Of a DNA stretch of 64,000 bases, positions 49,574 through 51,735 are shown piece after piece; the first letter of the stretch is position 1, and every line of letters begins with the position of its first letter. Source of the DNA: Streptomyces griseus (GTDB taxonomy: Bacteria > Actinomycetota > Actinomycetes > Nanopelagicales > Nanopelagicaceae). The stretch is taken from NCBI GenBank assembly GCA_945865365.1, contig CAMBDL010000001.1:1-64000 (forward strand). Direction: 5' to 3'. A program made the translations under genes and the position numbers. The notes below the pieces were generated by a model, which was given only the letters and a program-made list of their open reading frames with translations, was not told the origin of the DNA and did no database searches.

Positions 49574-50392
49574 TTAGGCGTGTGCTGGTGCCTTAGTCGA
49601 GGCCTTGACCAGATAGAGCCTTAAGACAGTGACTATGTAGAGCGCATAAACGCCCAGCTGCAGCCATGACGTACTGGCGTCAAAGCCAACCGTTCCAGCC
49701 AGAATAGCTCCTATAAGTGTCTCTTTGCCTAGTAAAGCGCTCACATCAAATACGTAGGACTCACCACCTGGCAGATATCCGAGCTCTTGGAACTCATGTA
49801 CTCCATATGCCAGAACTCCGGCGGCAACGACGATCAAAGCAATACCTGTGTAGGTGAAGAATGTGGAGAGGTCAATTCTTATCGCCGCTTTGAAAATCAA
49901 ATAACCGACGGCTATGGCAGTTGCAAAGCCAATGACTAATCCAATTGCTGAAGCTAGCGGATCTGCAACACTCATAAAATTAGAGTAGACGAAGAGTGAG
50001 GTTTCAAGGCCTTCGCGAATAACGGCTAAAAATGCAACTCCAGCAAGGGCTAGAGGCCCAGCAAGAAATGCATCTTCAACTTTACTGTTTAACTCTCTGC
50101 GTAAATGTCGTGCTGTCCGCTTCATCCAAAAAACCATATAGGTAACTAGAACCACGGCCAGGAGAGAAGTAACTCCAGCAAAAAGCTCTGTATCCCTATC
50201 TGAAAGTGTGCGAGAGGTGAGGTTGAGCATCGCCCCTAGTCCAATGCTGATGGCCACAGCCGCGGCCACACCTAGCCAGACATAGGCCGTAAGGGATTGG
50301 CGCTTACTTTTTTGAACATAGGCGATAACGATGCCGACTATGAGCGCGGCTTCTAGGCCTTCTCGCAGAGCGATGATGAATGAACTGAGCAT
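49574..50392 (-). CDS. FTR1-family high-affinity iron permease (EfeU-like)
   Basis: 272 aa with about seven transmembrane segments and the two iron-coordinating REGLE motifs (residues 10-14 and about 125-129). FTR1/EfeU imports ferric iron and usually works with EfeO and EfeB, or with a multicopper oxidase; none is adjacent. It is inserted between the RNase D gene and fadA. A TACATT -10 at 7 nt upstream and a striking 32-bp inverted repeat just before it suggest separate, regulated transcription. Confidence 0.92.
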   Translation of the reverse strand: MLSSFIIALREGLEAALIVGIVIAYVQKSKRQSLTAYVWLGVAAAVAISIGLGAMLNLTSRTLSDRDTELFAGVTSLLAVVLVTYMVFWMKRTARHLRRELNSKVEDAFLAGPLALAGVAFLAVIREGLETSLFVYSNFMSVADPLASAIGLVIGFATAIAVGYLIFKAAIRIDLSTFFTYTGIALIVVAAGVLAYGVHEFQELGYLPGGESYVFDVSALLGKETLIGAILAGTVGFDASTSWLQLGVYALYIVTVLRLYLVKASTKAPAHA

Positions 50393-50399
50393 GGCTCAT

Positions 50400-50405
50400 A
50401 ATGTA
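50400..50405 (-). promoter_or_regulatory. Leaderless-type -10 (TACATT) of the FTR1 gene
   Basis: Minus-strand hexamer 7 nt before the ATG at 50392. Confidence 0.6.
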
Positions 50406-50416
50406 GAGGGTGTGGC

Positions 50417-50448
50417 TGAATTACGCAACTCTTCCGTTGCGTAATTCA
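50417..50448. repeat. Perfect inverted repeat upstream of the FTR1 gene
   Basis: Two exact 13-bp arms (50417-50429 and 50436-50448, TGAATTACGCAAC type) around a 6-nt TCTTCC loop. It begins directly after the RNase D stop codon and covers about -25 to -56 relative to the FTR1 start codon. No T-tract follows on the minus strand, so a factor-independent terminator is unlikely; an operator or an RNA hairpin is more likely. Confidence 0.7.
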
Positions 50449-51735
50449 TTACTCCTGAACCGGCGATTCGACCTCTGGCTCTTCGATGACCAATGGCTCA
50501 CGTTCAAGTAAGGCATGGGCCACGGTGGGTGCAACTAATTCGATCTGCCAGGGACGTGCTCCCAAGGCCGCCATAGCAGCTCTAACAGAGGCCTCGTCGT
50601 ATTCCTGGGTTGAAGCAGCTGGGGGCTGCCAGCACACGCGACGGATGATTTCAGGGGAGATGAGATTTTCAACGGGAATCTGATGCGCGGTCGCGATGAT
50701 GTCGATGCCCGCTCTAGCGTGAGAGAGCGGCGCAAATTTCTCTGGGAAGCGATCGCGCCAGAGTTTTATTGGCGGCAAGGTATCGGCGTTAGTACGAAGT
50801 GGTGGCCATTCACTTTCAGGCAGTGCAACTGCCAGGGCAATGGCATCTAACCATGTTGCAAGATTTTCTAACCACCGTGCGCGCAAACCCAGTGGTCGCA
50901 GTGCTTTTTCAAACTCTTTTTTCGATGCTGGAGCGGCAAGTGCGAGCTCAACAATTGCAGAGTCATTGAGGAGTTTGCCGCCGGCGATATCGTGCGCTGA
51001 TGCAATTTTATCTCGTGCAAGCCACAGGTTGCGAATGATCGCTAAGTGATCTCTGCGCTTTATCTTATGCATTCCAGATGTACGTCGCCAAGGATCAACA
51101 CGCGGTGGCGGAGGAGGAGCTTTGAGAATCGCTGCGAACTCTTGTTCTGCCCATTCCAATTTTCCCGCTGTTGAAAGTATTGCATGCATGGCTGCACGAA
51201 GCTCAACGAGTAACTCAACATCAAGTGCTGCATACGTCAACCATTCGTGAGGTAGAGGGCGAGTCGACCAATCGGCGGCGCTGTGTTCTTTAGCAAGTGA
51301 GACTCCCATAAGGGATTCCAACAATGGACCGAGTCCCACACGTGGTAAACCAGCTATACGGCCAGCTAATTCAGTATCAAAGAGTCGCTCTGGATTAATT
51401 CCTATTTCGCGCAAACACGGCAAATCTTGAGTGCTCGCATGCAAAATAACTTCATCGGTATTCAGTAACTCATTGAGTGAAGCAATGAGTGGATGAGCCA
51501 GGCCAAATGGAATCGGATCAATTAAATGCAGCCCACCACCATTGCGCTTAATCTGTATCAAATATGCTCGCGCGCTGTAACGAAAGCCAGATGCGCGTTC
51601 AGCGTCAACTGCAAATGGGCCGTTACCTTTGCGCAGTTCAGTGATTGCATCGATAAGTGCAGCATCAGTGGCTATAACTTCTGGGGTTCCTGCAGCAGGA
51701 GAAAGTAGAGGCAGAGCTTGAAAAACTTCTTCCAT
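50449..51735 (-). CDS. Ribonuclease D-like 3'-5' exonuclease with HRDC domain
   Basis: 428 aa. DEDD exonuclease motifs: FAVDAERASGF (DxE, about residues 39-49), LHASTQDLPCL (about 98-108) and YAALDVELLVEL (about 168-179), followed by a proline-rich linker APPPPPRVDPWRR and an HRDC domain (about 225-300). RNase D trims tRNA and other RNA 3' ends. 8 bp downstream of the DUF3000 gene, and so co-transcribed with it. Confidence 0.88.
   Translation of the reverse strand: MEEVFQALPLLSPAAGTPEVIATDAALIDAITELRKGNGPFAVDAERASGFRYSARAYLIQIKRNGGGLHLIDPIPFGLAHPLIASLNELLNTDEVILHASTQDLPCLREIGINPERLFDTELAGRIAGLPRVGLGPLLESLMGVSLAKEHSAADWSTRPLPHEWLTYAALDVELLVELRAAMHAILSTAGKLEWAEQEFAAILKAPPPPPRVDPWRRTSGMHKIKRRDHLAIIRNLWLARDKIASAHDIAGGKLLNDSAIVELALAAPASKKEFEKALRPLGLRARWLENLATWLDAIALAVALPESEWPPLRTNADTLPPIKLWRDRFPEKFAPLSHARAGIDIIATAHQIPVENLISPEIIRRVCWQPPAASTQEYDEASVRAAMAALGARPWQIELVAPTVAHALLEREPLVIEEPEVESPVQE

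Follow-up and report, generated by a model that had tools for sequence, protein, structure and literature searches.

A perfect inverted repeat before an FTR1 iron permease gene is a candidate SufR operator in freshwater Actinobacteria

DtxR/IdeR, whose box stands at actinobacterial iron-uptake promoters, senses Fe(II) directly. In the Rhizobiales, a direct iron sensor, Fur, has been replaced as the repressor of iron uptake by RirA, an Fe-S-cluster protein of the Rrf2 family that is unrelated to SufR and has a different operator and lineage. SufR is an iron-sulfur-cluster-sensing repressor of suf operons and, in the available excerpts of three papers, characterised SufR proteins are described as repressing (PMC8593673, PMC11995493, PMC13421787). 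The same excerpts give CAAC-N6-GTTG as the operator bound by the SufR of cyanobacteria and of Streptomyces avermitilis (PMC8593673, PMC11995493, PMC13421787), name shortage of iron and stress of the oxidative or nitrosative kind as the triggers of its release (PMC8593673, PMC13421787), and present SufR as so far dedicated to suf operons (PMC8593673). In these systems the palindrome lies over the promoter, the regulator heads the suf operon and carries cysteines as Fe-S ligands; the suf operator of Corynebacterium glutamicum is a near-match to the same motif. We found no earlier report of SufR control of iron import in the open-licence literature, where SufR was not found together with 'Nanopelagic' or 'efeU'.

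The window, that is, the whole stretch of 64,000 nucleotides that was analysed, contains such a palindrome in front of an iron permease gene. The palindrome, its parts and its neighbours are as follows:

50417..50448, no strand assigned: perfect inverted repeat with 13-nt arms and a 6-nt centre (repeat search)
50421..50444, no strand assigned: 24-bp core of the candidate operator, TTACGCAAC-N6-GTTGCGTAA, kept before FTR1 in 109/109 family genomes
50426..50439, no strand assigned: CAAC-N6-GTTG, the published SufR recognition motif (available excerpts of PMC8593673, PMC11995493, PMC13421787)
50423..50428, minus strand: TTGCGT, putative -35-like hexamer in the right arm, with a 17-nt spacer to TACATT
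50400..50405, minus strand: TACATT, putative FTR1 -10, 7 nt 5' of the ATG (50392)
49574..50392, minus strand: FTR1/EfeU iron permease, the proposed controlled gene (PF03239, E 1.5e-55; NF041756, 313.9 bits, cut-off 255)
50449..51735, minus strand: RNase D-type exonuclease, upstream neighbour, outside the proposed switch (PF01612 and HRDC)

The arms (50417-50429 and 50436-50448) are 100% complementary over their 13 nt and, on the (-) strand that carries the genes, the repeat reads TGAATTACGCAAC-GGAAGA-GTTGCGTAATTCA. Its first base lies directly 3' of the RNase D TAA (50449-50451) and its other end 11 nt from TACATT. An earlier note on this DNA had described an exact repeat filling almost the whole spacer between the RNase D stop and the FTR1 -10, and both this description and the naming of the two neighbours, now backed by the protein family matches given above, were borne out. 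Within the window, no other perfect repeat has arms of at least 13 nt and a loop of 3-10 nt, and none appeared in 10 Markov resamples. These resamples, together with the family conservation and the shuffle control presented below, rule out a random repeat. A dispersed family of 13-bp-arm repeats is ruled out too: single arms with up to two mismatches are no more frequent than chance in the window and in the genome (at two mismatches, 15 per strand against 24 in the control), so that the genome search for further arm copies proposed in the earlier note brought up nothing beyond chance. When the window's genome was scanned at up to three mismatches for further regulon members, the whole core was found once only, at this site.

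The repeat had been said not to look like a DtxR/IdeR box. Indeed, the FTR1 promoter of the window has no match to that box at up to six mismatches, and this identity was rejected. We propose instead that the inverted repeat is very probably a SufR operator, through which SufR would repress iron import by FTR1 in replacement of DtxR/IdeR. The suggestion in the earlier note of an operator for an uncharacterised metal regulator is thus kept in its first half, while its uncharacterised regulator gives way to SufR as a specific candidate. Compared with the operators of suf operons, the target here is an iron importer (FTR1, an Fbp-type ABC transporter or Nramp) and not suf, the arms are extended to TTACGCAAC, and the -35 is overlapped rather than the -10. 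With the DtxR/IdeR box, the site shares a position class in the promoter and, in relatives, the target FTR1/EfeU, but it differs in sequence and regulator, and that box was not found at the FTR1 promoters of the family outside one genus. An operator of a kind already known thus appears to serve a new purpose here, as an Fe-S sensor's site placed on iron importers in a family that has mostly lost DtxR.

The family, made up of streamlined, Nanopelagicaceae-like freshwater Actinobacteria, was represented by 151 genomes, 110 of which have an FTR1 match; the upstream DNA was examined in 109 of these, G135 being left out because its contig holds only a C-terminal FTR1 fragment. Comparison with relatives, as the earlier note had advised, revealed that the core is conserved together with FTR1: TTACGCAAC-N6-GTTGCGTAA is present upstream of the gene in 109/109 genomes, at 0 mismatches in 78, at 1 in 27 and at 2 in 4. 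Twenty shuffles of each upstream stretch (2180 in total, including 15 minus-strand stretches in the wrong orientation, while the 109-genome counts use the right one) gave no site at three mismatches or fewer, the minimum being 4. CAAC-N6-GTTG is exact in all but one of the 109 family promoters (108/109); the GCAAC and TTG positions are invariant or nearly so and the centre is mostly variable. Seventeen of 17 additional FTR1 loci of the same genus carry the site at 0-1 mismatch, and the same site precedes FTR1 in Candidatus Planktophila and related MAGs. An order-level search added no new family.

A transcription-factor operator appears to be the best explanation for a repeat conserved in this way. 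The earlier note had also considered that the repeat might act as RNA, and a hairpin serving as a 3' stabiliser, a processing site or an attenuator of the RNase D transcript would suit the stable fold of the repeat stretch (-27.5 kcal/mol, z -4.28, a stability common to any perfect repeat) and the position of the site close behind the RNase D stop in many relatives. However, not a single compensatory pair change was found among 63 distinct site sequences, in which pair-breaking changes do occur, and this absence argues that the site is conserved as a DNA sequence, not as an RNA structure. There is no T-tract, as had been seen at once, and the terminator scan detected no intrinsic-terminator-like site at the repeat, which moreover lies upstream of the putative FTR1 transcription start. 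In two loci of named relatives without FTR1 (L065 and L079), a thiolase gene comes directly after RNase D and the site is missing, and in four others (L162, L163, L420 and L421) the site precedes an Fbp-type transporter and is preceded by a gene other than RNase D. The site tracks iron importers, not RNase D. On this covariation, terminator and locus evidence, a role of the repeat as a hairpin or terminator of the RNase D transcript was rejected, and we regard any such function as extremely improbable.

The position of the conserved site with respect to the gene is also nearly fixed. In 104 of the 109 family genomes, it ends 27-29 nt before the FTR1 start codon, and a TANNNT sequence stands 6-7 nt 5' of the start, at 17 or 18 nt from the TTGCGT of the right arm. 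This geometry suggests that the palindrome covers the -35 and that the start codon itself, or a base adjoining it, is where transcription begins; in the window, the short distance between the -10 and the ATG would yield a leaderless, or nearly leaderless, FTR1 mRNA. In the model that we propose, the SufR of this organism is an Fe-S-cluster-binding winged-helix repressor. By analogy with the described systems, the cluster-bound form should repress and the loss of the cluster should release. When both iron and Fe-S clusters are ample, cluster-loaded SufR dimers would occupy the palindrome and cover the FTR1 -35, so that little iron is imported. Under iron shortage or cluster damage, SufR devoid of its cluster would leave the DNA and free the -35; the leaderless FTR1 mRNA would then be made and import would be switched on. 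SufR would in this way hold, within the family, the place that DtxR/IdeR has at the FTR1 promoters of other members of the class.

The main mechanistic rival is activation from about -40, with SufR, in its apo or holo form, acting near this position in the manner of a class II activator. The centre of the palindrome does lie, by derivation, about 40 nt upstream of the FTR1 start codon in most relatives, and the -35 hexamer TTGCGT matches TTGACA poorly. Nevertheless, characterised SufR proteins repress, as far as the excerpts cited above go, and the same site overlaps the -10 and the start at sufR, an arrangement compatible with occlusion only; activation is accordingly an unlikely alternative to repression. 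What the sequences themselves contain is the palindrome with its motif, the conservation of both, their place on the promoter, the association with several kinds of iron importer, the site shared with sufR in further genera and families, and the anti-correlation with DtxR; from these features we infer the binding of SufR at FTR1, repression rather than activation, and a response to iron.

The window's genome has a sufR gene of its own (G000:C9:23837-24511), at the head of a suf operon in which it is followed by SufB (TIGR01980, 728.7 bits) and further suf-like ORFs. On the cyanobacterial equivalog model TIGR02702, the protein scores 72 bits, below the cut-off of 178.8, this being its sole NCBIfam match at that threshold; hence it is called here a SufR homologue, outside the cyanobacterial equivalog. 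A PDB search found no sequence relative of it. The protein carries the pattern C-X3-C-X12-C-X27-C, which is present in 50 of 54 SufR loci (L190, L382 and L389 have no match, and the match in L187 is spurious). Rv1460 of M. tuberculosis, according to published work, requires C203, C216 and C244, which have the same X12/X27 spacing.

If SufR reads the palindrome before FTR1, a similar sequence might be expected at sufR itself. In 10/10 loci outside the genus of the window, all of them selected by that very pattern, the start codon of sufR coincides with a site whose right half is GTTGTGAAA; in these loci sufR heads sufR-sufB-sufD and is divergent from ctaA. In other genera, AACAAT occupies the -10 place of the sufR site, whose last G is the likely start. 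The excerpt available for the S. avermitilis suf promoter describes the same overlap with a -10 AACAAT and likewise places the start on the last G (PMC11995493). Among 14 genomes outside the family, CAAC-N6-GTTG is exact at the sufR start in 7 and has 1 mismatch in 1 more, and one further genome of the 14 has kept the right half alone. In the genus of the window, the sufR copy is degenerate: in all 25 loci inspected out of 30, GTTGTGAAA is retained and CAAC is replaced by ACAC or a similar sequence (for example L197:2171-2184), and the promoter copy of the window's genome, GGACACAATAGTGTTGTGAAA, has likewise kept its right half and a degenerate left half. Autoregulation, and the motif that SufR reads in this genome, are made less certain by this degeneracy. 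In our reading, control of suf by its own regulator has weakened and the site at FTR1 has remained perfect; possibly, it is the sequence preference of SufR that changed instead.

The divergent ctaA gene, which encodes heme A synthase, begins about 40-110 nt away from the sufR operator in L152-L159, L164 and L165. Since the operator is common to both genes, the synthesis of heme A may be a further process under SufR control.

The degenerate sufR site of the window's genome would also fit an operator read by another palindrome-binding regulator, of the Fur family or unrelated, that recognizes a CAAC-N6-GTTG-like sequence. FUR-family proteins were detected in 137/151 family genomes, so that another metal regulator does exist. 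Yet one Fur-family gene of the window's genome lies beside a putative ZIP-like transporter gene, which suggests zinc over iron. The published SufR motif is embedded in the repeat, and other genera and families have the same palindrome where sufR starts. We consider another regulator quite improbable, and SufR remains the preferred reader of the site.

The family differs from its relatives in the near absence of DtxR. A DtxR protein scores over the cut-off in only 4/151 family genomes, all of genus g6, whereas the gene is over the cut-off in 50/54 FTR1-bearing genomes outside the family, these being the best-scoring 54 of 96 and thus not an even sample. FTR1 promoters were scanned for a TTAGGTTAGGCTAACCTAA-like 19-mer, the DtxR/IdeR-box consensus, and boxes with up to five mismatches were called DtxR-like. 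Such a box is found in 35/54 of the outside promoters, against 3 of 1080 shuffles, and a SufR-type site in 1/54. In the family, 3/109 promoters have a DtxR-like box; all three are from g6 and the same three keep the SufR site, which has 2 mismatches and stands 58-71 nt from the start, with the DtxR-like box in between. The fourth DtxR-bearing g6 genome, G044, has neither FTR1 nor the site. In a tree of FTR1 proteins, the one sequence from g6 is placed between the rows of the class and the other rows of the family (support 94/78), a placement made unsure by its long branch.

In g6, the sole genus of the family with DtxR, the loci whose FTR1 promoters combine a SufR-type site with a DtxR-like box are L170, L267, L268 and L271. 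Boxes without a DtxR over the cut-off were also seen: G233 and G298 have DtxR-like boxes at FTR1 and no DtxR match, and G250 has a box and only a weak match, owing perhaps to an incomplete assembly or to another reader of the box. The correlation between DtxR and its box is, as these three genomes indicate, strong but not perfect. In a small genome of another family, G346 (97% complete), no DtxR match was found, and a SufR-type site with 1 mismatch lies at FTR1 (L365); CAAC-N6-GTTG is also present at its sufR. This may be a case of parallel rewiring.

The site is not restricted to FTR1. Forty-one family genomes have no FTR1 match, and 32 of them contain the site at one mismatch or none. In 30/32, it precedes a gene for the FbpA-like protein of an Fbp-type ferric ABC transporter. 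The closest solved relatives of this protein are ferric-binding proteins (E 3.7e-70), and its closest NCBIfam models are phosphonate transporters, all below the cut-off. Of the two other sites, one (L417:1501-1524, in G011, 1 mismatch) precedes an Nramp gene and one is at a contig end (L151). Across this major group of freshwater bacteria, the site thus marks three unrelated types of iron importer, and it does so in parallel with the loss of DtxR. From the distribution of sites and genes, SufR most likely took over the control of iron import upon this loss. The fuller scheme, in which the Nanopelagicaceae lost DtxR/IdeR and came to use SufR as the main switch for whichever iron importer they have, through an intermediate of the g6 type and with a possible repeat in G346, is in our view probable. 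If true, it would be an actinobacterial counterpart of the exchange in which an Fe-S sensor takes over from a direct iron sensor, the intermediate being still visible, and these bacteria would gauge iron through the supply of Fe-S clusters, which would couple iron import to oxidative damage.

A possible further target was noticed in G074, where a second site with 1 mismatch (L166:2999-3022) lies 112 nt before a gene for a family-5 solute-binding protein.
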